64,000 nt of DNA from Planctomyces sp. SH-PL62 (GTDB lineage: Bacteria; Planctomycetota; Planctomycetia; Isosphaerales; Isosphaeraceae): contig NZ_CP011273.1 in NCBI RefSeq assembly GCF_001610895.1, positions 5,084,001-5,148,000 on the forward strand, written 5' to 3'. The notes beneath the pieces were generated by a model. The model ran no database searches, had not been told where the DNA came from, and worked only from the letters and a program-made list of their open reading frames with translations. The position numbers were made by a program, and so were the translations under genes. How positions within the stretch are numbered: the stretch's first letter is position 1; each line of letters opens with the position of its first letter. Of this stretch, positions 1,830 to 30,616 are shown in pieces.

Positions 1830-3260
1830 GTGGGCCCCTTGAACCTGACCACGACGCTCCGGGGCGAGCGCTTCGCGTTCGGCGACCTCGCCGAAGTGCT
1901 CGCGAAGGCCAACGAGGAGAAGTCCGGCGACCAGCTCGCCGGCCTGGCCGCGCGCACCGAGCGCGAGCGCGTCGCCGCCAAGATCGTCCTCGCCGAGATC
2001 ACCCTCGGCGAGGTCGTCGACAACCCCGTCATCGACCCGGACGAGGACGAGGTCAGCCGGCTGATCCTCGACCAGCTCGACGCCGAGGCGTTCGCCCCCT
2101 TTCGCGGCCTGACGCTGGGGGCCTTCCGCGAATGGGTCCTCGACGACGCCACGACGGGCGCGACGCTCGCGGACGCCCGAGGAGCGATCACGCCCGAGAT
2201 CGCCGCGGGCGTCGCCAGGCTGATGAGCAACAAGGACCTGGCCGTCGCCGCCGCCAAGATCCGCAACGTCACCCGATGCCGGAACACCCTGGGCGAGCGC
2301 GGCGTGCTGGGAATCCGCGTCCAGCCCAATCACCCGAGCGACGACCTCGCGGGCATCCTCCTCTCCGCCGTCGACGGGCTGACCTACGGTTGCGGCGACG
2401 CCGTGATCGGCGTCAACCCCGCGACCGAGTCGGTCGACGTCGTCGAAGTGATCCTTCGCGGGCTCGACCGGCTCATCGACGCCTTCGCCATCCCCACCCA
2501 GGCCTGCTGCCTGGCGCACATCACCACGCAGCTCGCTTGCCTCGACCGCGGCGCGCCCGTCGACCTCCTCTTCCAGTCGGCCGCCGGCACCGAGGCCGCC
2601 AACCGGAGCTTCGGCATCGACCTGGCCCTCTTGCGGGAGGGCCGAGAACGAGTCCTGGAGAGCCACGCCCGCCGCGACGTCCGCTGGGCCGGCTCGCAGG
2701 TCATGTACTTCGAGACCGGACAGGGAAGCGCGCTGTCGGCCGGGGCGCACCACGGCGTCGATCAGCTCACGCTGGAGGCCCGCGCGCAAGGGGTCGCCCG
2801 CGCCTTCGACCCATTCCTGGTCAACAGCGTCGTCGGCTTCATCGGCCCCGAGTATCTCTTCGACGAACGCCAGATCGTCCGGGCCGGGCTGGAAGACCAT
2901 TTCGTCGGCAAGCTGCTGGGATTGCCGATGGGGGTCGACGTCTGCTACACGAACCACGCGGAGGCCGACCAGAACTCGGCCGACAACCTGATGCTCCTGC
3001 TGGCCGCAGCCGGCTGCAACTTCTTCATGGGCGTCCCCTGCTCCGACGACGTGATGCTCAACTACCAATCTACCAGCTACCATGACTCCCTGGCGGTCCG
3101 AGACCTGTTCGGGCTCCGACCCGCTCCCGAGTTCGACGCCTGGCTGGCCGGGCGCGGGCTCGGCCGAGGCACGTCGGCGATCGACCAAGAGCAGGCGAGG
3201 AGTCGCGCCATGCGAGGGCTCGAAACGGTGATCTCGGAGACCAGGGGCTTCCATCCATGA
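1830..3260 (+). CDS. eutB: Ethanolamine ammonia-lyase large subunit
   Basis: 476 aa, close to the usual EutB size (about 450-470). The protein matches the EutB TIM barrel throughout: an N-terminal stretch with LAKANEEKSGDQLAGLAA, a central RVQPNHPSDD segment, and a C-terminal cobalamin-proximal part with DVCYTNHAEADQNS and FFMGVPCSDDVMLNYQSTSYHD. With EutC it forms the adenosylcobalamin-dependent lyase (EC 4.3.1.7) that converts ethanolamine to acetaldehyde and ammonia. The start is GTG at 1830; a TTG at 1839 is the alternative. The stop overlaps the next gene by 4 bp (ATGA), which suggests translational coupling. No eutA reactivase and no microcompartment shell genes are in the window, so this is a minimal, non-compartment set. 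Confidence 0.96.
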   Translation: MGPLNLTTTLRGERFAFGDLAEVLAKANEEKSGDQLAGLAARTERERVAAKIVLAEITLGEVVDNPVIDPDEDEVSRLILDQLDAEAFAPFRGLTLGAFREWVLDDATTGATLADARGAITPEIAAGVARLMSNKDLAVAAAKIRNVTRCRNTLGERGVLGIRVQPNHPSDDLAGILLSAVDGLTYGCGDAVIGVNPATESVDVVEVILRGLDRLIDAFAIPTQACCLAHITTQLACLDRGAPVDLLFQSAAGTEAANRSFGIDLALLREGRERVLESHARRDVRWAGSQVMYFETGQGSALSAGAHHGVDQLTLEARAQGVARAFDPFLVNSVVGFIGPEYLFDERQIVRAGLEDHFVGKLLGLPMGVDVCYTNHAEADQNSADNLMLLLAAAGCNFFMGVPCSDDVMLNYQSTSYHDSLAVRDLFGLRPAPEFDAWLAGRGLGRGTSAIDQEQARSRAMRGLETVISETRGFHP

Positions 3261-4771
3261 ACGAGCCGGGAGCGGACCTGACGGCGGAGGACGACGACGC
3301 CCGACGCCTGCGCGGGCTCGGATATAAGCAAGAGCTGGCGCGTCGCCTGAACGGGTTCTCGAACTTCGCCATCTCGTTCTCGATCATCTGCATCCTGGCC
3401 GGGGGCGTCAGCTCCTTCCACCTGGGCCTTTGCAGCGTCGGCGGCGCGTCGATCGGGCTGGGCTGGCCGCTGGTCGCCCTCTTCTCCCTGGCGGTCGCCG
3501 CGACGATGGGCCAGCTCGCCTCCGCGTTCCCCACGGCCGGCGGCCTTTACCACTGGGCGGCGATCCTGGGCGGTCGCGGCTGGGGGTGGGCGACCGCCTG
3601 GTTCAACCTCGCGGGACTGGTCACGGTCCTCGCCGCGATCAACGTCGGCACCTATCGCACGGCCGCGACCGCGATGGGATACGGCGGCGGGATGGAGACG
3701 TGGCGGGAGCACCTGGCGCAGGTCTTCGTCGTGGTCGCGATCACGGCGTCCCAGGCGGCGATCAACCACCTGGGGATCAGCGTCACGGCCCGGCTCACCG
3801 ACTTCAGCGGCTACTGGATCCTGGCCGTCTCCGCGCTCCTCGCCGGCGCCCTGCTCGGGTTCGCGCCGACGTTGGACTTCGGCCGTTTGGTCGCGTTCGA
3901 GAATTTCGGAGGCGCGGCGGGAGGCGGGGTCTGGCCCGAGACCGGCAGCCTCGCGATGCTGTTCGCGCTGGGGGCGCTCCTGCCCGCGTACACGATCACC
4001 GGATTCGACGCCTCGGCCCACGCGTCGGAGGAAACCCTGGACGCGAGCGAGTCGGTGCCGAGGGGGATCGTGCGATCGGTCCTGATCTCGGGGATCGCGG
4101 GCTGGGTCCTGCTGTCGGCCGTCGTGCTGGCCGCGCCGAGCGTCTCCGAGGCCGCCGCGAAAGGCGAGGGCGCGTTCCCCTGGATCCTCCACAGCGCGTT
4201 TCCGACGTGGCTGGCGTCGGCGTTCGCGGCGGCCATCGTGGTCGCGCAGTACCTCTGCGGACTGGCGACGGTCACATCGACCTCGCGGATGGCCTTCGCC
4301 TTCGCCCGCGACGGCGGCCTGCCGTTCTCGGCGGCGATGCGCCGCGTCAGCCCCAGGCGGCGCTCGCCGGCCGTCGCGATCTGGGCGACGTCCGCCGCCG
4401 CCGTCCTGTTCACGGTCTACACGCCCGTCTACTCCACCATCACGGCGGTCTGCACCATCCTCCTCTATCTCTCCTACGTCCTGCCGAGCATCCTGGGCGC
4501 GCGGGCCTACGGCAAGACCTGGACGATCATGGGCCCCTGGAACCTGGGACGCGGCTTCCGCCCGCTGGCCTGGCTAAGCGCCCTCGGCTGCGCGGGCCTG
4601 ATCGCGATCGGCATGCAGCCGCCGAACGAGCAGTCGGCGTGGGTGGTCGGAACCATGGTGATCGCCCTGGCGGTCGTATGGTTCGCCGGCGAGCGCAAGC
4701 GGTTCCCCGGCCCCCCCGTGCTCCGCGAGATCCACCGGCACGCGATCCACCTTCAAGAGGCCCCGCGATGA
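3257..4771 (+). CDS. APC-superfamily amino acid/ethanolamine permease
   Basis: 504 aa with about 12 hydrophobic helices. The N-terminus (LARRLNGFSNFAISFSIICI, then FPTAGGLYHWAA) is typical of the GABA/amino-acid permease branch of the APC superfamily. ITGFDASAHASEET and the following PRGI segment are also characteristic. It starts in a 4-bp ATGA overlap with eutB and ends in a 4-bp overlap with eutC, so it lies inside the ethanolamine operon between the two lyase subunits. From context it probably imports ethanolamine; this substrate is inferred, and the family alone would equally allow an amino acid or GABA. Inner membrane. Confidence 0.9.
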   Translation: MNEPGADLTAEDDDARRLRGLGYKQELARRLNGFSNFAISFSIICILAGGVSSFHLGLCSVGGASIGLGWPLVALFSLAVAATMGQLASAFPTAGGLYHWAAILGGRGWGWATAWFNLAGLVTVLAAINVGTYRTAATAMGYGGGMETWREHLAQVFVVVAITASQAAINHLGISVTARLTDFSGYWILAVSALLAGALLGFAPTLDFGRLVAFENFGGAAGGGVWPETGSLAMLFALGALLPAYTITGFDASAHASEETLDASESVPRGIVRSVLISGIAGWVLLSAVVLAAPSVSEAAAKGEGAFPWILHSAFPTWLASAFAAAIVVAQYLCGLATVTSTSRMAFAFARDGGLPFSAAMRRVSPRRRSPAVAIWATSAAAVLFTVYTPVYSTITAVCTILLYLSYVLPSILGARAYGKTWTIMGPWNLGRGFRPLAWLSALGCAGLIAIGMQPPNEQSAWVVGTMVIALAVVWFAGERKRFPGPPVLREIHRHAIHLQEAPR

Positions 4772-5571
4772 GCGACCTCCTCCCCGATCGCCCGGAACCG
4801 GATTCCGACGACCTGCTCGCCCGCGTCCGCCTTCGAACTCCCGCGCGAGTCTTGACCGGACGCGCCGGCGGCTCATACAAAACCGCCACCTGGCTTGAAC
4901 TCCGGGGCGACCACGCGGCGGCTCGCGACGCCGTCCGCGCCGACGTGGACCTGGAGCGCGACTTCGGACGCCCGTTCCTCGACCGCTGGGATCTTTTCGA
5001 GGTCGCCACCGCCGCCGGGTCCAAGGCGGAGTATCTCCTCCGGCCCGACCTCGGCCGCTCACTCCGTCCCGAGGCCCGCGCCGAGGTCGCGGCCCGCCGC
5101 GCCATCGGCGCCGATCTCCAGATCGTCCTGGGCGACGGCCTCTCCGCGGCGGCCCTGATCGCGCAGACTCCGGGCCTCCTGCCCCGTCTCGCCGAGGAGT
5201 CGAGCACGGCCAGGCTCGGCCTGGGCCTTCCGTTCTTCGTGCGTCACTGCCGGGTCGGAGTCATGAACGACGTCGGCGACCTGCTCGATCCGGCGGTCGT
5301 CATACTCCTGATCGGCGAGCGCCCGGGGCTGGCCACGGCCGAGAGCCTCTCGGCTTACCTGGCCTTCCGCCCGCGATCGGGCCACGACGACTCGCGCCGG
5401 AACCTCATCTCCAACATCCACGCTCGCGGCATCCCCATCGACCAGGCCGCCGCCCGGATCGTCGATCTGGCCCGTCGGATGATCGCCGGGCGCGTCAGCG
5501 GCGTCGCGATCAAGGAGACCTGGTCGCCGTCCCTTTCAGGCCCCGCGAAGCGCTCGATCGAGCCGTCCTGA
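4768..5571 (+). CDS. eutC: Ethanolamine ammonia-lyase small subunit
   Basis: 267 aa. The start ATG at 4768 overlaps the permease stop (ATGA). EutC features are visible: LRTPARVLTGRAGGSYKTAT near the N-terminus, then VGDLLDPAVVILLIGERPGLATAESLSAYLAF and a C-terminal DSRRNLISNIHARGI segment that is close to the cobalamin-binding motif of the family. It pairs with EutB to make the active lyase. The open frame extends far upstream of 4768, but that part is a shadow of the permease gene, so the overlapping ATG is the right start. The gene ends 24 bp before the convergent ATP-grasp gene. Confidence 0.95.
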   Translation: MSDLLPDRPEPDSDDLLARVRLRTPARVLTGRAGGSYKTATWLELRGDHAAARDAVRADVDLERDFGRPFLDRWDLFEVATAAGSKAEYLLRPDLGRSLRPEARAEVAARRAIGADLQIVLGDGLSAAALIAQTPGLLPRLAEESSTARLGLGLPFFVRHCRVGVMNDVGDLLDPAVVILLIGERPGLATAESLSAYLAFRPRSGHDDSRRNLISNIHARGIPIDQAAARIVDLARRMIAGRVSGVAIKETWSPSLSGPAKRSIEPS

Positions 5572-5595
5572 CCCACGTGTCCGCGAGCCGAACGT

Positions 5596-6723
5596 CTAAC
5601 CGAGCCGATCCAGCCAGCCGCGTTCCTGCGCATCGAGCTGGGCGAGGCACTCGTCCGAGGTCTCGGCGGTCGCCAGCACGCTGAGGATCGGCTCGCCGGG
5701 CTCGATCCTCGTCCCTTCTTGGGGGACGTCGGCGATCGGGGGCGTCGCGAAGGGAGCGTCGACCGACCAGCGGGGAACCTCCACCTTCGGGAACCTGACC
5801 GGGCACCGGGCGTAGACGACCCGCTTGCCGACGACCGGCGCCCGACGACTCGGTCCGAGCTCTTCGACGAGTTCGCCCTCCACGCACGCGCGGACGTGGT
5901 CCCGAAGCAGGACGCGGCCCGACGACAGCTCGAACAACTCGACTGACGCCGTGTAGCGAGGGTTCACCTCGACGACCCACGGTCGACCGGCGTTCAGGAT
6001 GAAATCGACGCCGAACAGGCCGACGAGCCCGAAGGCGCCGGCGAGAGCCTCGCCGATGCGGCCGAGTTCCGCGTCCGTCGCCTCGCTCAACCCCCAGGGC
6101 GCAATCCCGCCGCGATAGAGGAATGGCGCGTCCGGCGCCCCCAGGAACTGCCTGGCCGCGCCGATCAGACGGGCTCGCCCCGAGGCCGCGATGAAAAGGC
6201 CCGAGAAGGTCGGGCCTTCGAGGAATTCCTGGAAATCGTGGGCGTCGTCGGGCGCGTCCCTCCCCGGCTCCGCCCAGGCGACGCCCAGCCCGCCGGCCCT
6301 GACGCGAGACTTCCTGAGCCATCGGCCCGACGCCGACGCCTCCGAGAGGTCGCGGCGCAAAGCCGGCGACGGCAGGCCCTCCCCGCGCAGCACGTCGGAC
6401 ACCTGCCACGGATCACGGACCCGTCGGAGAACCTCGGGACCGTTCCCGAGCCGCCGGCCGACTCGCGAGAGCCGCTCGACGAGGTCGGGCCGGGCCTCCA
6501 TCGAGCCGGTGAACATCCACGACTCGCAGCCGAGCGAATCCGCCAGCCGCTCCAACCCGTCGGCGTCGCGATCGGGATCGAATCGGACGACCGGCGCGTG
6601 GTCTGCCAGGTCGGCGTCGGCGAAGAGGTCGAGGCAGCGAGGGCGGAATCCGGCTCGAATCGCCGAGAAGGCCGCGGCGCGGGTGCTTGCGCCGACGATC
6701 AGGATTTCCTCGATTTCGGACAT
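5596..6723 (-). CDS. ATP-grasp enzyme, probably of H4MPT-dependent C1 metabolism
   Basis: 375 aa. An N-terminal pre-ATP-grasp region (ILIVGASTRAAAFSAIRAGF) is followed by ATP-grasp elements: a lysine-containing strand (RWLRKSRVRAGGLGVAW), QEFLEGPTFSGLF, and the metal-binding end FGVDFILNAGRPWVVEVNPRYTAS. Carbamoyl-phosphate-synthase-like ATP-grasp proteins of this size are encoded among the tetrahydromethanopterin C1 genes of methylotrophs and planctomycetes (often called orf17-like), where they are thought to act in cofactor synthesis. Here fae and mtdB lie 0.7 kb away, which supports that role; the reaction itself is not established. The start codon follows a terminator T-run with only one base between, and there is no good Shine-Dalgarno site. 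Confidence 0.8.
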   Translation of the reverse strand: MSEIEEILIVGASTRAAAFSAIRAGFRPRCLDLFADADLADHAPVVRFDPDRDADGLERLADSLGCESWMFTGSMEARPDLVERLSRVGRRLGNGPEVLRRVRDPWQVSDVLRGEGLPSPALRRDLSEASASGRWLRKSRVRAGGLGVAWAEPGRDAPDDAHDFQEFLEGPTFSGLFIAASGRARLIGAARQFLGAPDAPFLYRGGIAPWGLSEATDAELGRIGEALAGAFGLVGLFGVDFILNAGRPWVVEVNPRYTASVELFELSSGRVLLRDHVRACVEGELVEELGPSRRAPVVGKRVVYARCPVRFPKVEVPRWSVDAPFATPPIADVPQEGTRIEPGEPILSVLATAETSDECLAQLDAQERGWLDRLG

Positions 6724-22058: not shown

Positions 22059-24272
22059 ATGATTGTTCGCTTCCTCGTCCGGCTCCCGGCCCTCATGCTC
22101 GCGGTCGCCTCGCTCGCCGCGGCGACGAGGGCCGAGGAACCGTCCCCCGCCGCGACGGCGGACGCCGCGAAGGCCGAGCACTTCACTTCGAAGGTCGAGC
22201 CCATCCTGACCTCTCGCTGCCTGAAATGCCACGGCGGCGAGAAGACTCGCGGGGGGCTCCGGCTCGACGGCCGCGAGGCGATGCTCAAGGGCGGAGACCT
22301 CGGCCCGGCCGTCGACCTCGACGCGCCCGACGAGAGCCTGCTGCTCAAGGCGATCCGCTATGAGGACGGCCTGGAGATGCCCCCCTCGGGGCGGCTCCCC
22401 GACGATGACGTGAAGGTGCTCGCCGAATGGCTCGCAGCCGGCGCCCCCTGGTCCGGCGGCGACACCGCCGGGGCGAGGCCGACGACTTCCGAGGAGCCGG
22501 ACGCGCCGACGGCCGATTCGTGGCCCTATCGCGAGGTCGTCCGCCCCGAGATCCCGACCGTCCGGGATCGGAGCTGGGCGCGGAACCCCGTCGACGCCTT
22601 CCTCCTCGCCGGGCTGGAGGCCGACGGCCTCGCGCCGGCCCCCGAGGCCGATCGTCGGACCTTGATCCGCCGCGCGACCTTCGACCTCACCGGCCTGCCG
22701 CCGACCCCCGCCGAGATCGAAGCTTTCGAGGCCGATCCCGCGACCGACGCCTTCGAACGGCTCGTGGACCGACTGCTCGCCTCGCCCCAGTACGGGGAAG
22801 CCTGGGGCCGACACTGGCTGGACCTCGTCCGCTACGCCGAGACCAACGGCTACGAACGGGACGCCGCCAAGCCCTTCATCTGGCGGTATCGCGACTACGT
22901 CGTCGACGCCTTCAACCACGACAAGCCGTACGACCGCTTCCTGCTCGAACAGCTCGCCGGCGACGAGGTCGCTCCCGACTCGGTCGAGGCGCAGGTCGCC
23001 ACCGGCTTCTACCGCCTGGGCGTCTGGGACGACGAGCCGGCCGACCGTCCCCTCGCCCGCTTCGACATGCTCGACGGCGTGGTCTCCACCGTCGGCCAGG
23101 TCTTCCTGGGCATGACGATCAACTGCGCCCGCTGCCACGACCACAAGAAGGACCCGATCCCCCAGTCCGATTACTACCGGCTGCTGGCCTTCTTCATCGA
23201 CATGGGCGAACAGACCGGCCTGGAGACCCGCAAGGTGGGCCCCGAGGGCGTCGCCGTCATGGCCGCCGTCGAGAAGGGCCGCACCGAGCCGCACGTCCTG
23301 CTGCGAGGCAACCCGAACCTTCTCGGCCCCCGCGTCGAGCCGGGCGTCCCCGTCGTCCTGGACCCGGATCGGGCGACGTTCGGCCCCGGCGCCGGCAAGC
23401 GTCGGGCGCTCGCCGAATGGCTGGCCGATCGCCGCAACCCGATGACCGCCCGGGTCTTCGCCAACCGGCTCTGGCAGTACCATTTCGGCCGCGGGCTGGT
23501 CCCCTCCCCCAACGACTTCGGCAGCCTCGGCGACCCTTCGACCCACCCCGAGCTGCTCGACTGGCTGGCCGCCGAGCTGATGGGCGGCGGCTGGACGGTC
23601 AAGCGGATGCATCGGATCATCATGCTTTCGAGCGCCTACCGGATGTCCTCGCGGCCGTCCGACGCCGCGCTCGCCCGCGACCCGGCGAACCTGAAGTTCC
23701 AGCGGTTCCCGATGCGTCGGCTGACGGCCGAGGAGGTCCGCGACGCGATCCTCGCGGTCGGCGGCGTCCTCAACCCCGGCGCGAAGGGTCCCTGGGTCTG
23801 CCCGCCGATCCCGGACGAGGTCCTCGCCGGCCAGTCGGTCCCGGGCCAGGGCTGGAAGGTCTCCTCCCCCGAGGAGTCGGCGCGGCGGAGCCTCTACGTC
23901 CACATCAAGCGGTCGCTGGCCGTCCCCATCCTGGCGACCCACGACGCGGCCGACACCGATTCCAGCTGCCCCGTCCGCTACACGACGACCGTCCCCACCC
24001 AGGCGCTCGGCCTACTCAACGGGGCCTTCGCCAACGAGCACGCCGCGAAGCTCGCCGGGCGGCTCGCGAAGGGCCGCGAGGGGGACCTCGAAGCCCAGGT
24101 CCGCGAGGCCGTCCTCCTGACCACCGGCCGCGAGCCGACCGCCGACGAGGCCGCCCGCGACCTCGCGTTCCTCCACTCGCTGCGCGACGAGGCGGGGCTG
24201 TCCGAGGCCGAGGCGCTCGTCCAGTACGCGCTCCTCGCGCTCAACGCCAACGCCTTTTTGTATCTCGACTGA
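22059..24272 (+). CDS. Planctomycete cytochrome PSCyt1 + DUF1549 + DUF1553 protein
   Basis: 737 aa with a Sec signal peptide (MIVRFLVRLPALMLAVASLAAATRAEE). A PSCyt1 haem domain follows: VEPILTSRCLKCHGGEKTRGGLRLD, with the CLKCH motif near residue 55, and MPPSGRLPDDDVKVLAEWLAAGAPW. Then come DUF1549/PSCyt2 (FDLTGLPPTPAEIEAF, YGEAWGRHWLDLVRYAETNGYERD, NCARCHDHKKDPI with a second CxxCH) and DUF1553/PSD1 (NRLWQYHFGRGLVPSPNDFG, HPELLDWLAAELM, GWTVKRMHRIIMLSSAYRMS). This architecture is a hallmark of planctomycetes, probably in periplasmic oxidation of complex substrates. DUF1501 follows 13 bp downstream, its usual partner. Confidence 0.95.
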   Translation: MIVRFLVRLPALMLAVASLAAATRAEEPSPAATADAAKAEHFTSKVEPILTSRCLKCHGGEKTRGGLRLDGREAMLKGGDLGPAVDLDAPDESLLLKAIRYEDGLEMPPSGRLPDDDVKVLAEWLAAGAPWSGGDTAGARPTTSEEPDAPTADSWPYREVVRPEIPTVRDRSWARNPVDAFLLAGLEADGLAPAPEADRRTLIRRATFDLTGLPPTPAEIEAFEADPATDAFERLVDRLLASPQYGEAWGRHWLDLVRYAETNGYERDAAKPFIWRYRDYVVDAFNHDKPYDRFLLEQLAGDEVAPDSVEAQVATGFYRLGVWDDEPADRPLARFDMLDGVVSTVGQVFLGMTINCARCHDHKKDPIPQSDYYRLLAFFIDMGEQTGLETRKVGPEGVAVMAAVEKGRTEPHVLLRGNPNLLGPRVEPGVPVVLDPDRATFGPGAGKRRALAEWLADRRNPMTARVFANRLWQYHFGRGLVPSPNDFGSLGDPSTHPELLDWLAAELMGGGWTVKRMHRIIMLSSAYRMSSRPSDAALARDPANLKFQRFPMRRLTAEEVRDAILAVGGVLNPGAKGPWVCPPIPDEVLAGQSVPGQGWKVSSPEESARRSLYVHIKRSLAVPILATHDAADTDSSCPVRYTTTVPTQALGLLNGAFANEHAAKLAGRLAKGREGDLEAQVREAVLLTTGREPTADEAARDLAFLHSLRDEAGLSEAEALVQYALLALNANAFLYLD

Positions 24273-24285
24273 GGGAGAGGACCCC

Positions 24286-25776
24286 ATGCGAAACGACGGT
24301 GCCCCTCCCCCCTCGCGCGCCCCGCACGGCCAGTTCTGCGGCCGTACCCGCCGGGAGTTCCTGTGGGAGACCGGCGGCGGCTTCACCGCGACGGCCCTCG
24401 CCGGGCTGCTGTCGCAGGACGGCTTCCTGGGTCGACGAGCCCGCGCCGCCGACGCCGCGCCGCCGTTCGTCAACCCGCTCGCCCCCAAGTCCCCCCCGAA
24501 AACGGGCAAGGCCAAGAGCGTCATCTTCCTGTTCATGTACGGCGGCCCGAGCCACGTCGACACCTTCGACCACAAGCCGAGGCTCTACCCGCTCGACGGC
24601 AAGACGATCGAGGTGAAGACCTTCGGCCGAGGGGGCAAGCGCAACGAGGGCCGGGTCGTCGGCCCCAAGTGGGCGTTCCGCCCCTACGGCGAGTCGGGCA
24701 AGATGATCTCGGACCTGTTCCCGAACCTGGGGACGTGCGCCGACGACATGGCGTTCGTCCACTCGATGTACGCCGAATCGCCGATCCACGGCTCGGCCAT
24801 GCTGATGATGAACTCGGGCCGGATCCTCAGCGGCAACCCCTGCCTCGGCTCCTGGGTGACGTACGGGCTGGGCAGCGAGAACCAGAACCTCCCCGGCTTC
24901 GTCGTCATGCTCGACAAGACCGGCGGACCGATCAGCGGGCCCAAGAACTGGTCGAGCGGCTACATGCCGGCCGTCTACCAGGGGACCGTCCTCCGCGCCG
25001 ACGGCGTGCCGATCCACGACCTCTCCCCCCCCGAGGGGACCGACCGCGCCCTCCAGCGTCGGCTCCTGGACCGCCTCCGGGAGAAGAACGAGGAGCACCG
25101 CGTCCCCCGCGCCGACAACTCCGAGCTGGCCGCGCGGATCGCCAGCTATGAGCTGGCCTTCCAGATGCAGCAGCACGCCCCGGAGGCCGTCGACTACTCC
25201 CAGGAGAGCGCGGAGACGCTGGCCCTCTACGGCGTCGACCGACCCGAGACCGCCGACTTCGGCCGGAAGTGCCTGCTCGCCCGCCGACTCGTCGAGCGCG
25301 GGGTCCGGTTCATCCAGGTCTACTCCGGCGGGGCCCACAACGACGACAACTGGGACGCCCACGGAGACATCGTCTCCAACCATACCAAGCACGCGGGCCG
25401 GACCGACAGGCCCATCGCCGGGCTCATCAAGGACCTCAAGCGCCGGGGCCTGCTCGACGAGACCCTGATCGTCTGGGGGGGCGAGTTCGGCCGCCAGCCG
25501 ACCGCCGAATTCGCCGAGGGGACCGGCCGCGACCATAACTCCTACGGCTTCACCGTCTGGCTCGCCGGCGGCGGGATCCAGGGGGGCGTGAGCGTCGGCT
25601 CGACCGACGAGCTGGGGAGCGCCGCGGTCGACGACCGGTTCCACGTCAAGAACCTCCACGCCACGATCCTCGACCGGCTCGGCTTCGACCCCAACGCCCT
25701 CGCCTACTTCTACGGCGGCCTCGACCAGAAGCTCGTCGGCGTCGAGGGCGCCGAGCCGATCCATCAACTGATCTAG
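24286..25776 (+). CDS. Tat-exported DUF1501 (sulfatase-fold) protein
   Basis: 496 aa. The N-terminus carries a twin-arginine signal (GRTRREFLWETGGGFTATALAGLL). The body matches DUF1501, which has an alkaline phosphatase/sulfatase-like fold: VIFLFMYGGPSHVDTFDHKP, GSWVTYGLGSENQNLPGFVVM, RRLVERGVRFIQVYSGG, DHNSYGFTVWLAGGGIQGG. The usual catalytic Cys/Ser of sulfatases is not seen, so activity is open. It follows the PSCyt gene after 13 bp with GGGAGAGGA before its ATG. The pair occurs together in very many planctomycete genomes and is likely one operon with the next gene. Confidence 0.95.
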   Translation: MRNDGAPPPSRAPHGQFCGRTRREFLWETGGGFTATALAGLLSQDGFLGRRARAADAAPPFVNPLAPKSPPKTGKAKSVIFLFMYGGPSHVDTFDHKPRLYPLDGKTIEVKTFGRGGKRNEGRVVGPKWAFRPYGESGKMISDLFPNLGTCADDMAFVHSMYAESPIHGSAMLMMNSGRILSGNPCLGSWVTYGLGSENQNLPGFVVMLDKTGGPISGPKNWSSGYMPAVYQGTVLRADGVPIHDLSPPEGTDRALQRRLLDRLREKNEEHRVPRADNSELAARIASYELAFQMQQHAPEAVDYSQESAETLALYGVDRPETADFGRKCLLARRLVERGVRFIQVYSGGAHNDDNWDAHGDIVSNHTKHAGRTDRPIAGLIKDLKRRGLLDETLIVWGGEFGRQPTAEFAEGTGRDHNSYGFTVWLAGGGIQGGVSVGSTDELGSAAVDDRFHVKNLHATILDRLGFDPNALAYFYGGLDQKLVGVEGAEPIHQLI

Positions 25777-25820: not shown

Positions 25821-26582
25821 ATGCGACCGAGAACCTCGCCGGCCGTCCTGATCCTCCTCGCCTCCGGATTCGCCGGGCTCGCCGATCGGGCGGTCGCCGA
25901 ACCCCCGGTCACGCGCAAGGCCTCCTGCGCCTGGGCGAGCGAGGCCCCGACGCTCGACGGCAAGCTCGACGACGCCTGCTGGCGCGCCGCCAAGCCCGTC
26001 ACCGACTTCGCCGCCCTCTGGCTCGGCGAGTCCCGGCCCGGCACCCGCGCCCGGCTCGCCTGGGACGACGAAGCCCTGTATTACGCGGCCGAGATGGACG
26101 ACGCCGAGCTTCGGGCGTTCGGCCGCAATCGCAACGACCACCTCTGGGAAGGGGACGTCTTCGAGATGTTCTTCAAGCCCCGCGAGGACCAGCCCGGCTA
26201 CTACGAGTTCCAGGTCAACCCGCTGGCCACGGTCTTCGAGGTCGCGTTCCCGAAGCGCGGCGCGCTCGACCACGCCTTCCGCGACGAGCCCCCGCTCGGC
26301 CACGAGGCGGCCGTCGTCCTCCGGGGCACGCTCGACCGTCCGGGCGACGTCGACGAGGGCTGGACCGTCGAAGGCCGCATCCCCTGGTCGGCGTTCGCCC
26401 CCACCGGCGGCCGCCCCAAAGTCGGCGACGCCTGGCGGTTCGCCCTCTGCCGGTACGACTACGGACCGGAGGGGACCAAGCCCGCCCTCATGAGCTCGGC
26501 CCCCCTGACGGTCCCCAACTTCCACCGCTACGAGGACTACGGCGTCCTCCAATTCGAAGGCCCGGACGCCGCCAGGCCCTGA
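25821..26582 (+). CDS. Secreted carbohydrate-binding CBM9-like protein
   Basis: 253 aa. A signal peptide (about residues 1-27, SGFAGLADRAVA) is followed by a CBM9-like/DOMON-type sandwich: PTLDGKLDDACWRAAKPVTDF, ARLAWDDEALYYAAEMDD, LWEGDVFEMFFKPREDQPGYYEFQVNP, and GWTVEGRIPWSAFAP near the end. This family binds carbohydrate ends or metals and is common in secreted planctomycete proteins. It is 44 bp downstream of the DUF1501 gene, so it probably belongs to that operon and may present a glycan to the redox pair. It is convergent with the BASS transporter gene (10-bp gap). Confidence 0.88.
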   Translation: MRPRTSPAVLILLASGFAGLADRAVAEPPVTRKASCAWASEAPTLDGKLDDACWRAAKPVTDFAALWLGESRPGTRARLAWDDEALYYAAEMDDAELRAFGRNRNDHLWEGDVFEMFFKPREDQPGYYEFQVNPLATVFEVAFPKRGALDHAFRDEPPLGHEAAVVLRGTLDRPGDVDEGWTVEGRIPWSAFAPTGGRPKVGDAWRFALCRYDYGPEGTKPALMSSAPLTVPNFHRYEDYGVLQFEGPDAARP

Positions 26583-26592
26583 ACCGGGACGG

Positions 26593-27627
26593 TCACGCCG
26601 CGTCGGCCGCGCACAGGCGGCCGACGCAGCCGGCGACGACGTGCTGCACGAGGTTGTAGACGATGATCGGCAGGAGCACCAGGGGCTCCGACGCCAGGAT
26701 CGTCGACGCCAGAACCAGTCCCGTGCCGTTGTTGTTCATCCCCATCCCGAACATCAGCGCCGTGCGCTGTGGCCGTCCGGCCCGCAAAAGACGACCAATC
26801 GCATAACCGCCAAAAAAGGTGAGTATGCAAAGCCCCGTTGATAAAGCCAGGGCCGCGCCCAGGAAGTCCCAGTCCGGGTCGGCGAGCGCCTGCGGCAGAC
26901 AGGCCGCCGCGTTCGAATAGCAGAGAGCCAGGAGCGCAAGCGTCGCCGCCGACTTGAGCGCGCGTTCCAGCCGTTCGACCAGCGTCGTCGACGCGAGCCG
27001 GCGGGCCGCCATCCCGAGCAGCGACGGGACCAGCACCCAGGCGGCCAGGAAGGCTCCCGTCCCACGCCCGGCCAGGGCGAGCAGGTCGTTCGCGGCCTCC
27101 CCCGGAAACGCCAGGCCCGCGAACCGGAGCAGGGCCGGCGTGGCGATCGGGCTGAGCAGCGTCGAGCCGACCACGAGCCCCAGGCTGAGGGACATGTCCG
27201 CGCCGACGCTCTGCGCCCACCCGGTCGAGGATCCCGCGATCGGCATCGCCGCCACCAGGGCCAGGCCGACGACCAGGCTCGACGCCTCGACCGGGTCGTG
27301 CCAGGCGACGAGCGCCGGTGCCAGCGCCGCCAGGTACAGCAGCGGGATCATCATGTTGGCGAGCAGGCCCGCCAGCACCACCGAGGGCCGCCGAGCGATC
27401 TCCCGCATCCGGTCGGGACGAGCCCGCAACCCCGCGTTGAACAGCAGAAGCGCCAGCAGCAGAGCCGGCCCCGACGCCTCGATCCGCCCACCACCAGCCT
27501 CGAACTCGAATGCGCGGACGTTCCGAAGCCAGAGCCCGGCCGTCGGGCTCGTCCGGGCCGCGACGTAGGCCGCCGCGATGCAGAACAGCAAATGCCGATG
27601 AATCCAGTGGCTCAATCGCTCGATCAT
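26593..27627 (-). CDS. BASS-family (bile acid:sodium symporter-like) transporter
   Basis: 344 aa with about 9-10 hydrophobic helices. Family features are an early NAG segment (LLLFNAGLRARPDRMREIARRP), the conserved MPIAGSSTGWAQSVGADMSLSLGLVVGSTLLSPIATP, and a second inverted-repeat half with MGMNNNGTGLVLASTIL. The two halves each contain an Asn-rich crossover typical of the sodium-binding site. The substrate is not predictable; BASS members carry organic anions, pantoate or bile acids. The gene is divergent from the PepSY two-component operon, with three palindromic sites between them that could control both. Confidence 0.88.
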   Translation of the reverse strand: MIERLSHWIHRHLLFCIAAAYVAARTSPTAGLWLRNVRAFEFEAGGGRIEASGPALLLALLLFNAGLRARPDRMREIARRPSVVLAGLLANMMIPLLYLAALAPALVAWHDPVEASSLVVGLALVAAMPIAGSSTGWAQSVGADMSLSLGLVVGSTLLSPIATPALLRFAGLAFPGEAANDLLALAGRGTGAFLAAWVLVPSLLGMAARRLASTTLVERLERALKSAATLALLALCYSNAAACLPQALADPDWDFLGAALALSTGLCILTFFGGYAIGRLLRAGRPQRTALMFGMGMNNNGTGLVLASTILASEPLVLLPIIVYNLVQHVVAGCVGRLCAADAA

Positions 27628-27735
27628 CCCAGGGATCCCTCCGTCTCGGGTTACGCCGTGATCCGGGTCGAGTGTCGAACTCCCGGACGTCGGAGGGATC
27701 CTAGACCCGCCTCCTGAGACGGCGACGAGCCCTGA

Positions 27736-27751
27736 ATAAGATCGGCCTTAT
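27736..27751. promoter_or_regulatory. Inverted-repeat operator candidate 1 (ATAAG-N6-CTTAT)
   Basis: ATAAGATCGGCCTTAT. It is the exact reverse complement of site 3 (27814-27829). Centre near 27743.5. Confidence 0.55.
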
Positions 27752-27775
27752 AGATGACCCGCGAAGCTACGATCG

Positions 27776-27790
27776 ATAAGCTGAGCTTAT
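27776..27790. promoter_or_regulatory. Inverted-repeat operator candidate 2 (ATAAG-N5-CTTAT)
   Basis: ATAAGCTGAGCTTAT, a 15-bp perfect palindrome around one central base. Its centre (27783) is about 39 bp from the centres of sites 1 and 3. Confidence 0.55.
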
Positions 27791-27813
27791 GCCCTTTCTG
27801 TTTTTTCCCGTCG

Positions 27814-27829
27814 ATAAGGCCGATCTTAT
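27814..27829. promoter_or_regulatory. Inverted-repeat operator candidate 3 (ATAAG-N6-CTTAT)
   Basis: ATAAGGCCGATCTTAT, flanked by CG on both sides so that the symmetric part reaches 20 bp (27812-27831). It is about 100 bp upstream of the PepSY gene start. Confidence 0.55.
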
Positions 27830-27930
27830 CGTCGCATCACGGTCTCCTCAGGATCACCCCGTAGAATTCACAAAGGCCGGGGGGAGTTCCCCAGGCCGCC
27901 GGCTCGACCTGTACCGGAAAGGTGGAAACC

Positions 27931-28425
27931 ATGAGGATGCTGCTTCTGAAGTCTCTCGGTGTGATGATCCTGGCTGCCGCGGCCAGCTCGATCTCGGTCG
28001 CCTCGGCGGACGACGCTCCCAAGGCGGTGGTGGACGCCGTCAAGGCGAAGTTCCCCAAGGCCGAAATCAAGCACGTCGACAAGGAGGAGGAGGACGGGGA
28101 GGTCGTCTATGAGTTGAGGCTTCAGAACGGCGCCGATCGAGTCGAGGTCGAGGTGCGTGAGGACGGCCGGATCCTCCAGATCGAGACCGAGGTCAAGCCG
28201 GCCGACCTCCCCAGGCCGGTCGCCGACCTCGTCGCCGCGAAGCACCCCGGCAAGCCGGTCAAGAAGGCCGAGAAGGTCGTCAAGTTCGAGAAGGGCGCCG
28301 AGGTCGTGACCTACGAGGTCGTGGTGGAAGCCGATGGCAAGAAGATCGAGATCGAGGCCACCCCGGCCGGCAAGCTCGTCGACGCCGATGGCGACGACGA
28401 GCACGAGGAGAAAGACGAGGATTGA
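27931..28425 (+). CDS. Secreted protein with two PepSY-like repeats
   Basis: 164 aa. A signal peptide (MRMLLLKSLGVMILAAAASSISVASA) is followed by two related units: PKAVVDAVKAKFPKAEIKHVD with YELRLQNGADRVEVEV, and PVADLVAAKHPGKPVKKAEK with TYEVVVEADGKKIEIEA. This is the PepSY-like/DUF2874 pattern. The tail is Asp/Glu-rich (DGDDEHEEKDED), possibly metal-binding. ATG 27931 is preferred to GTG 27922 because AAAGGTGG then lies 5 bases upstream. It is directly ahead of a response regulator and histidine kinase; small periplasmic PepSY proteins are often regulated by, or modulate, such two-component systems. Confidence 0.82.
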   Translation: MRMLLLKSLGVMILAAAASSISVASADDAPKAVVDAVKAKFPKAEIKHVDKEEEDGEVVYELRLQNGADRVEVEVREDGRILQIETEVKPADLPRPVADLVAAKHPGKPVKKAEKVVKFEKGAEVVTYEVVVEADGKKIEIEATPAGKLVDADGDDEHEEKDED

Positions 28426-28454: not shown

Positions 28455-29153
28455 ATGCTCGGCCTGAAGGTGCTGGTGATCGAGGATGACGAGGAGATCG
28501 CCGATTTCCTGGTGCGGGGGCTCCGTGAGGAGGGCTTCACGGTCGATTCGGCCGCGACCGGCCCCGACGGCTGGCTCGCCCTCTCGCGGGGCGCCTGCGA
28601 CCTCGTCGTACTCGACTGGTGGCTCCCCGGGGTCGACGGGCTCACGCTCTTGAAACGCTTCCGACAGGCCGGGCACGACGCCCCCGTCCTCCTCCTCACC
28701 GCGCGCGACGCCCTCTCCGACAAGGTCAGCGGCCTCGACGGCGGCGCGGACGACTATCTCTGCAAGCCGTTCGACTACGAGGAATTCCTGGCTCGCGTCC
28801 GCGTCCTGGCGCGGCGGCGGGCCGCCTCCGCCTCGGCGGTCCTCTCCTACGCCGACGTCCGCGTCGACCTCCGCACCCAGCGGGTCGAGCGGGCGGGCCG
28901 CGTCGTGGAACTCACCGCCAAGCAGCAGGCCCTGCTCGTCTTCTTCCTCAACCGCCCCGACGAGGTCCTCACGCGCACCCGGATTTACGAGCACGTCTGG
29001 GACGAGCGCTACGACGGCTCCTCGAACACCCTGGAGTTCCACGTCATGGAGCTCCGACGCCGGCTGGAAGCGCACGGCCCCCGGCTCATCCACACCGCCC
29101 GGGGACGTGGCTACGTCTTCGGCGCGCGGGACGCCGAGGGGGAGGCGCGATGA
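28455..29153 (+). CDS. OmpR-family response regulator
   Basis: 232 aa. The receiver domain (1-115) has acidic pocket residues in VIEDDEEI, the phospho-acceptor Asp in LVVLDWWLPGVDG, the conserved Thr in LLTARD and Lys in CKPFDYEEF. The C-terminal winged helix (130-228) has ELTAKQQALLVFFLNRPDEVLTR and NTLEFHVMELRRRLE, ending GRGYVFGAR. It binds DNA as a phosphorylated dimer. ATG 28455 follows a long GGAGGAGGAGGA ribosome-binding stretch; an upstream TTG (28422) would lack one. Its stop overlaps the kinase start (ATGA). The palindromes upstream of the operon are possible targets. Confidence 0.95.
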   Translation: MLGLKVLVIEDDEEIADFLVRGLREEGFTVDSAATGPDGWLALSRGACDLVVLDWWLPGVDGLTLLKRFRQAGHDAPVLLLTARDALSDKVSGLDGGADDYLCKPFDYEEFLARVRVLARRRAASASAVLSYADVRVDLRTQRVERAGRVVELTAKQQALLVFFLNRPDEVLTRTRIYEHVWDERYDGSSNTLEFHVMELRRRLEAHGPRLIHTARGRGYVFGARDAEGEAR

Positions 29154-30616
29154 CCCTCCACGCCCGGATCTCCCGGTTCTTCCTGGCGACGCTCGCGATC
29201 GTCCTGTTCGGGTTCTCGACCCTCCTCTACGCCGTCTCCGCTCGCTATCTCCATCGCCGGACCGAGGACCGGGTCGAGTCGATCCTCAACACGCTCGCCG
29301 CCGCGGCCGAGATCACGCCCGGGGGGGTCGAATGGGAACCCGAGGAGCGGAGCCTCTCGTTCGGCCGCAGGGCTCCCGAGGGGGGATTCCAGTGGACCGT
29401 GTCCGACGAGCGAGGCGCGGCGATCGACGGCTCGACGCCCCGGACGATCCTGGCTCGCGACGACCCGGACCGTTCCCTCGACGGCCGCCGCGCGTTCCGG
29501 ATGAAGGACGAGCGTGGGCTCGGCTGGGCCGTCGGCGTCCGGGTGCTGGCCCCCGAGACGGCCGGCTTCCCCGCCGCGCCGGGACTCGCGCCAGACATCC
29601 ACCCCGCCCTGATCCTCCGGGCCGCCGTCGCGACCGCGGACGTGGAAGTCGCGCTGCGAAACCTCAGCCTGTTCCTGGCCGGGGCGTCGATCGGGGTCTG
29701 GGTTCCGGCGTTTCTCGCCGGCCGCCGGTTGGTCCGCCGCGCCTTGCTCCCGCTGACGGAGATGGCCCTGGCGGCCCATGAGATCCGAGGCGACGACCTC
29801 GCGATGCGGCTCCCGACCCCCGCGACCGGGGACGAGTTGGAAGAGCTCGGCGGCTCGTTCAACGCGCTCCTGGGACGGCTCCAGGAGTCCTTCGAACGCC
29901 AGCGGCGGTTCACCGGCGACGCCTCCCACCAGCTTCGCACCCCGCTGACCGCCATCCAGGGGCAGGTCGACCTCGCCCTCCGTCGCGATCGCGAACCGGA
30001 GGAGTACCGCCGGACGCTGGAACTGGTCCGGCGCAAGACGCAGCACCTGCGGCGGATCGTCGAGGCCCTGCTCTTCCTGGCGCGGGCGGACCGCGAATCG
30101 TCCGAGCCCGCGCTCCAGGTCGTGGATCTTGCGGAGTGGCTCCCCGAGCACCTACACGCCTGGCGCGAGCCGCCGCGAGCCGCGGAGATCCGCCTGGAGA
30201 CGTCCGGCGAGCCGCCGATGGCGGTCGCGGCCCACGTCGCGCTCCTGGCCGAGATGGTCGACAACCTCGTCGACAACGCGACCCGGCACGGCCGGTCCGG
30301 GACGCCGGTCGCGGTCGGCCTGGCGCGCCGGGGAGGCCGGATCGAATTGACGGTGGAGGACCGGGGTCCGGGCGTCTCCGCGGCCGACCTTCCTCACCTG
30401 TTCGAGCCGTTCTACCAGACGGAGGGGGCTCGAAGCCGAGGGGCGGGGGGCGTCGGGCTCGGCCTCTCGATCGTGAAGCGGCTCGCCGAGGTCTTCGGCG
30501 CGACGGTCGCCGTCGCGAGCGAGCCGGGACGCGGCGCGAGGTTCCTGGTGAGGTTCCCCGAAGCCGCGAATGAGGCCGCGACGAATGCCGAGTCCTCGCC
30601 CGCGACGACCGCCTGA
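29150..30616 (+). CDS. Sensor histidine kinase (HAMP, HisKA, HATPase)
   Basis: 488 aa. The N-terminal transmembrane helix (about 11-32, FLATLAIVLFGFSTLLYAV) and a second one (about 180-205) flank a periplasmic sensor region of about 150 aa. HAMP follows, then HisKA with the phospho-acceptor H in GDASHQLRTPLTAIQ (about 262). The HATPase has the N box DNLVDNATRHG, G1 VEDRGPGVSAADLPHLFEPFYQ and G2 GGVGLGLSIVKRLAEV. The ATG overlaps the response regulator stop (ATGA). It pairs with that regulator. The ligand is unknown; the PepSY gene in the same operon suggests a cell-envelope or cation signal. Confidence 0.95.
   Translation: MTLHARISRFFLATLAIVLFGFSTLLYAVSARYLHRRTEDRVESILNTLAAAAEITPGGVEWEPEERSLSFGRRAPEGGFQWTVSDERGAAIDGSTPRTILARDDPDRSLDGRRAFRMKDERGLGWAVGVRVLAPETAGFPAAPGLAPDIHPALILRAAVATADVEVALRNLSLFLAGASIGVWVPAFLAGRRLVRRALLPLTEMALAAHEIRGDDLAMRLPTPATGDELEELGGSFNALLGRLQESFERQRRFTGDASHQLRTPLTAIQGQVDLALRRDREPEEYRRTLELVRRKTQHLRRIVEALLFLARADRESSEPALQVVDLAEWLPEHLHAWREPPRAAEIRLETSGEPPMAVAAHVALLAEMVDNLVDNATRHGRSGTPVAVGLARRGGRIELTVEDRGPGVSAADLPHLFEPFYQTEGARSRGAGGVGLGLSIVKRLAEVFGATVAVASEPGRGARFLVRFPEAANEAATNAESSPATTA

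Follow-up and report, generated by a model that had tools for sequence, protein, structure and literature searches.

The locus and its palindromes

The 64,000-nucleotide stretch of the Planctomyces sp. SH-PL62 genome that was analysed here (the window, with positions counted from its first letter) contains a transporter gene and a divergent two-component operon, and between them lie three ATAAG-CTTAT palindromes that very probably belong to a predicted operator for a response regulator of the OmpR/PhoB type encoded next to them. On the minus strand is a gene for a BASS/SBF-family transporter (26593 to 27627, Pfam SBF 7.8e-19), a predicted target of that regulator and a divergent neighbour in relatives as well. 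The plus strand carries a PepSY-like gene with an apparent signal sequence (27931 to 28425, Pfam PepSY_like 3.1e-08, the start at ATG 27931 being picked by comparison with relatives), the OmpR/PhoB-family response regulator gene for the proposed DNA-binding protein (28455 to 29153, Pfam Response_reg and Trans_reg_C) and a sensor histidine kinase gene (29150 to 30616, with HAMP, HisKA and HATPase in Pfam). A sequence-only reading of the window had already placed the palindromes between a BASS transporter gene and a PepSY two-component operon, and the Pfam matches bear this out. The response regulator has the receiver and winged-helix (Trans_reg_C) domains expected of a protein that acts on an OmpR/PhoB-family operator.

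A pattern search found the three palindromes again where that reading had put them: site 1, ATAAGATCGGCCTTAT, at 27736 to 27751 on the minus strand, site 2, ATAAGCTGAGCTTAT, with a spacer of 5 base pairs (bp) and no strand, at 27776 to 27790, and site 3, ATAAGGCCGATCTTAT, at 27814 to 27829 on the plus strand. Site 1 is indeed the exact reverse complement of site 3, and site 2 is a perfect palindrome with a single central base as its symmetry point. The 6.78-Mb genome holds three matches to ATAAG-N5/6-CTTAT, all of them at this locus, while the chance expectation in the window is 0.00 and dinucleotide shuffles yield none; the random-like occurrence across the genome that had been named as a ground for giving up the motif was thus not found, the sites being specific to the locus. 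One-mismatch palindromes elsewhere in the genome are mostly chance, with seven extra against 14 control matches, and the one at C1:3252462 stands upstream of a paralogous response regulator.

The centres of the palindromes are 39.5 bp (3.76 turns) and 38.5 bp (3.67 turns) apart, and the two outer ones are separated by 78 bp, or 7.43 turns. The spacing had been taken for a nearly whole number of helical turns, an error of arithmetic, and the idea of helical phase was dropped. The even spacing is real but peculiar to this genome; what is conserved is, for each promoter, one inverted half-site and three direct ones in an array phased at 11 bp.

A predicted phased operator at both promoters

The palindrome is, as far as the letters of the DNA can tell, part of a larger predicted operator in which each promoter has one inverted and three direct pentamers at 11-bp steps. 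The typical layout upstream of PepSY genes is RTAAG-N6-CTTAT-N6-CTCAY-N6-CTCA, followed at a fixed distance by a TAnnnT -10 box, and comparison puts 10 to 11 bp between the end of the operator unit and that box. When the flanks were aligned on the palindrome, direct pentamers on either side peaked at offsets of 11 and 22, with a score that none of 2000 shuffles reached. TAnnnT was found 37 or 38 bp from the first direct pentamer at all 13 loci on the PepSY side, and at all ten BASS-linked loci on the transporter side. Half-sites repeated at about 10 to 11 bp close upstream of a -10 box, as here, are characteristic of OmpR/PhoB-family operators.

Both divergent promoters of the window bear this layout as mirror images, and the half-sites outside the outer palindromes, like the -10 boxes on both sides, go beyond what the sequence-only reading had seen. 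On the PepSY side, site 3 supplies the inverted arm and the first direct arm (CTTAT, 27825 to 27829), and the plus strand continues with ATCAC (27836 to 27840, 11 bp past the first; CTCAC/T in relatives), CTCAG (27847 to 27851, 11 bp past the second) and TAGAAT (27862 to 27867), the predicted -10 box of the operon of PepSY, regulator and kinase genes. The BASS promoter is read from the minus strand, where site 1 supplies the inverted arm and the first direct arm, CTTAT, which is followed by CTCGT (27725 to 27729), CTCAG (27714 to 27718) and the predicted -10 box TAGGAT (27698 to 27703). Both boxes were assigned by the conserved TAnnnT spacing. With up to two mismatches allowed, the full operator pattern matches the genome twice, both times at this locus and with no match in controls, and a search of six genomes of the genus gave ten matches, of which nine fall at this locus. 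Scans of the locus for terminators and for simple sigma-70 promoters found none, and the latter result is expected if the arms of the regulator replace the -35 element.

The predicted operator in related genomes

Our sample comprised 45 genomes of the family Isosphaeraceae, 32 of which gave a PepSY match. Of 30 PepSY genes scanned upstream for three direct arms and a -10 box, 27 had a convincing operator, in many cases with no BASS gene within the fetched flank. A BASS gene is divergent from PepSY at ten loci, the one in the window and nine others, and in nine of the ten the response regulator is also within the fetched flank. Seven of the ten have RTAAG-N6-CTTAT between the two genes, and the remaining three have ATAAG-N6-CTCAT or CTCAG. 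The longer pattern RTAAG-N6-CTTAT-N6-CTCAY occurs once each in seven of the 45 family genomes, each time immediately upstream of PepSY; the reversed control has 0 matches. Within the genus only G004 gave no PepSY match, and the palindrome was likewise not found there. Two Gemmataceae, Zavarzinella and one other genome, have the same operator layout. Wherever the operator occurs, it goes with a PepSY gene or with this subfamily of response regulators. The transporter is independently tied to the system in Zavarzinella and in SKW135, since there the BASS gene sits between the regulator and the kinase within one operon; the gene order PepSY, regulator, BASS and kinase is seen at L045 (Zavarzinella formosa, 2604 to 6303) and at L067 (2643 to 6470).

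A diverged form of the layout lies upstream of paralogous response regulators, one of which is encoded in the genome of the window. The latter (G000:C1:3251301-3251972, within locus L175, G000:C1:3249600-3254000) is 62% identical and comes with a kinase, and about 500 bp upstream of it is a diverged 11-bp operator, ATTAG.CTTAT.GTAAC.TTAAC, followed by TATCCT. The recognition helix reads HVM in the orthologues that we read and HVF or HIF in paralogues with TAAC/TAAG-type arms; where F replaces M, the second and third arms also differ, and in some other PepSY-linked regulators the residue is K or A. The position of the M is equivalent to His195 of PmrA, a likely determinant of specificity (PMC3973317). 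These alignments are suggestive of a covariation between the residue and the arm sequences. At two further loci (L106 and L113) a variant palindrome, ATGAA-N6-TTCAT/G, lies between BASS and the response regulator or upstream of the latter, flanked on just one side by direct arms and a -10 box, and this suggests that the half-site may drift while the layout persists.

Comparison with known systems

In kind, the arrangement would combine a CopR/AgrR-like inverted repeat and in-phase direct repeats with a BqsR-like 11-bp array and a DbfQRS-like PepSY module, but the specifics differ. The boxes of AgrR in Cupriavidus metallidurans and of CopR/PcoR, regulators of the OmpR family that respond to metals, have a 16-bp inverted repeat and an in-phase direct repeat (PMC7380067), both of which are present here. 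The best NCBIfam match of the window's regulator also points to the CopR family (cztR_silR_copR, TIGR01387), although its 213.9 bits are under the cut-off of 279.2. The AgrR box itself, ATKACANNNNTGTMAT, with ATKACA arms, a 4-bp spacer and 6-4-6 spacing (PMC7380067), is however not matched by ATAAG-N6-CTTAT, and unlike AgrR nearly every PepSY promoter examined here has three direct arms.

The BqsR (CarR) box of Pseudomonas aeruginosa, TTAAG-N6-TTAAG, shares with our operator the direct-repeat pentamers and the 6-bp spacers, giving an 11-bp step, and its tandem arrays overlap, with the last pentamer over the -35 (PMC4682146), which resembles the layout here. PepSY genes adjoin that system as well, the kinase of which senses ferrous iron. 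Its pentamers are TTAAG where ours are CTTAT/CTCAY, and its sites are direct repeats with many copies in the genome, whereas here the inverted arm is conserved and the operator confined to one locus. The PmrA box likewise has CTTAA-type half-sites head to tail and 11 bp apart, but only two direct half-sites, and His195 of PmrA is M here in an alignment made by eye (PMC3973317). The PepSY gene directly upstream of a response regulator and a kinase recalls DbfQRS of Vibrio cholerae, for which the available part of the source reports a small periplasmic PepSY protein encoded in the same position and evidence for positive autoregulation, but describes no operator and mentions no BASS transporter partner (PMC12714742). 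What sets the present operator apart from the known systems is the sequences of its arms and the constancy of the four arms.

The probable regulator and the alternatives

We consider it very likely that the array is the operator through which the adjacent response regulator would regulate its own operon and co-activate the BASS transporter. The phosphorylated regulator would occupy the arms beside the -10 box, substitute for the -35 element and recruit RNA polymerase in the manner of PhoB and AgrR, so that its own operon and the divergent transporter gene would be activated together; recruitment of polymerase has precedents in BqsR (PMC4682146) and AgrR (PMC7380067). Some points weigh against this. 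It is by linkage and by the behaviour of the family that the sites are assigned to this response regulator, and the sign of regulation is deduced from position. The loci are homologous and share ancestry, and the counts are to be read as descriptive and not as independent events, while the scoring of the scan upstream of the 30 PepSY genes was fixed after some loci had been inspected. In one genome (G016) a complete two-sided operator precedes a PepSY gene (L013, minus strand, 1498 to 2031) whose fetched flank shows neither a response regulator nor a BASS gene; such regulators are present elsewhere in that genome. The sequence-only reading had suspected the neighbouring response regulator as the binder, and this now has strong comparative support, the binding itself being still a prediction.

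The alternative that comes nearest keeps the same regulator but sees the palindrome as the mere junction at which two divergent direct-repeat operators meet, the inverted arm having no function for the opposite promoter. Where the genes diverge, one and the same pentamer does serve as inverted arm of one promoter and as first direct arm of the other, and yet we think this reading unlikely, in the first place from the scan upstream of PepSY genes. The position of the inverted arm was left out of its scoring, and the arm nevertheless stood at -11 from the first direct arm at all 27 loci with an operator, also where the fetched flank showed no BASS gene. Other offsets had it at 0 to 3 of the 27 loci, apart from -22 with ten, a count due to the divergent loci, which carry the mirrored second arm there. 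The window has an inverted arm beside each of its two separated promoters, and activation by AgrR requires the inverted repeat (PMC7380067). By these comparisons the inverted arm is part of the predicted operator.

A regulator encoded elsewhere, for instance a one-component repressor of 16-bp palindromes, might instead bind the sites, the response regulator being only a regulated neighbour. Dimeric repressors typically use perfect short palindromes, and binding by the response regulator is itself predicted from sequence comparison, but three direct half-sites at 11-bp steps and a fixed distance to the -10 box are an OmpR/PhoB-type signature (BqsR, PMC4682146; PmrA, PMC3973317), the divergence of the arms goes along with paralogous response regulators, and by Pfam, of the four genes conserved at the locus, only that of the response regulator encodes a DNA-binding protein. 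We therefore regard such a repressor as very improbable. Still harder to credit is a structural role, in which sites 1 and 3 would pair as a long hairpin or as a cruciform, or would bound an invertible segment. They are an exact 16-bp inverted repeat, 62 bp apart, and the DNA fold has a z-score of -2.48, but such a pair is absent from relatives, which have just one palindrome, the scan gave no terminator-like site, nothing in Rfam came near its gathering score, and inversion of the segment would change little at the promoters, whose -10 boxes and outer direct arms are not part of it. An RNA family was rejected, the match to mir-986 being no more than chance (20.9 bits, where the gathering score is 70), and a dispersed repeat or mobile element was rejected as well, since across six genomes of the genus the 126-bp stretch gave no further genuine match.

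The arrangement in this genome

In relatives one palindrome is common to both divergent promoters, and here each promoter has a private copy. Sites 1 and 3 both read ATAAGGCCGATCTTAT along the direction of their own promoter, and they are exact reverse complements because each of the divergent promoters owns a complete operator. Paired palindromes at the spacing of the window were found, among the 45 genomes, in the window's genome alone, and the three-palindrome arrangement is known from this one genome. Site 2, between the two operators and not found in relatives, is out of the 11-bp register of both. The private palindromes may have arisen as if by inverted duplication, with the off-phase third between them, and with their own arms the two promoters would not need to compete for the same ones. 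A tentative and rather doubtful further step is to see the triple palindrome as a lineage-specific redesign of the shared divergent operator through inverted duplication, where the middle site would join the regulators bound at the ends into joint or switch-like control; if this is true, relatives with a single palindrome should lack such control.

In our searches of the open literature we came upon no account of the binding code of a PepSY two-component system from planctomycetes. The operator proposed here would tie a BASS transporter to such a system by a code that is precise enough for bench testing, and the natural series from one shared palindrome in relatives to two private ones and a third in this genome could be used to ask how a regulator is shared or split between divergent promoters.

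Close BASS homologues also occur in Nitrospira, Nitrotoga, Methylocystis and others (L047 to L119), mostly without this two-component system nearby. On the other side of the BASS gene, the window has a large gene and then a DUF1501 gene (22059 to 25776), followed by a CBM9-domain gene (25821 to 26582).
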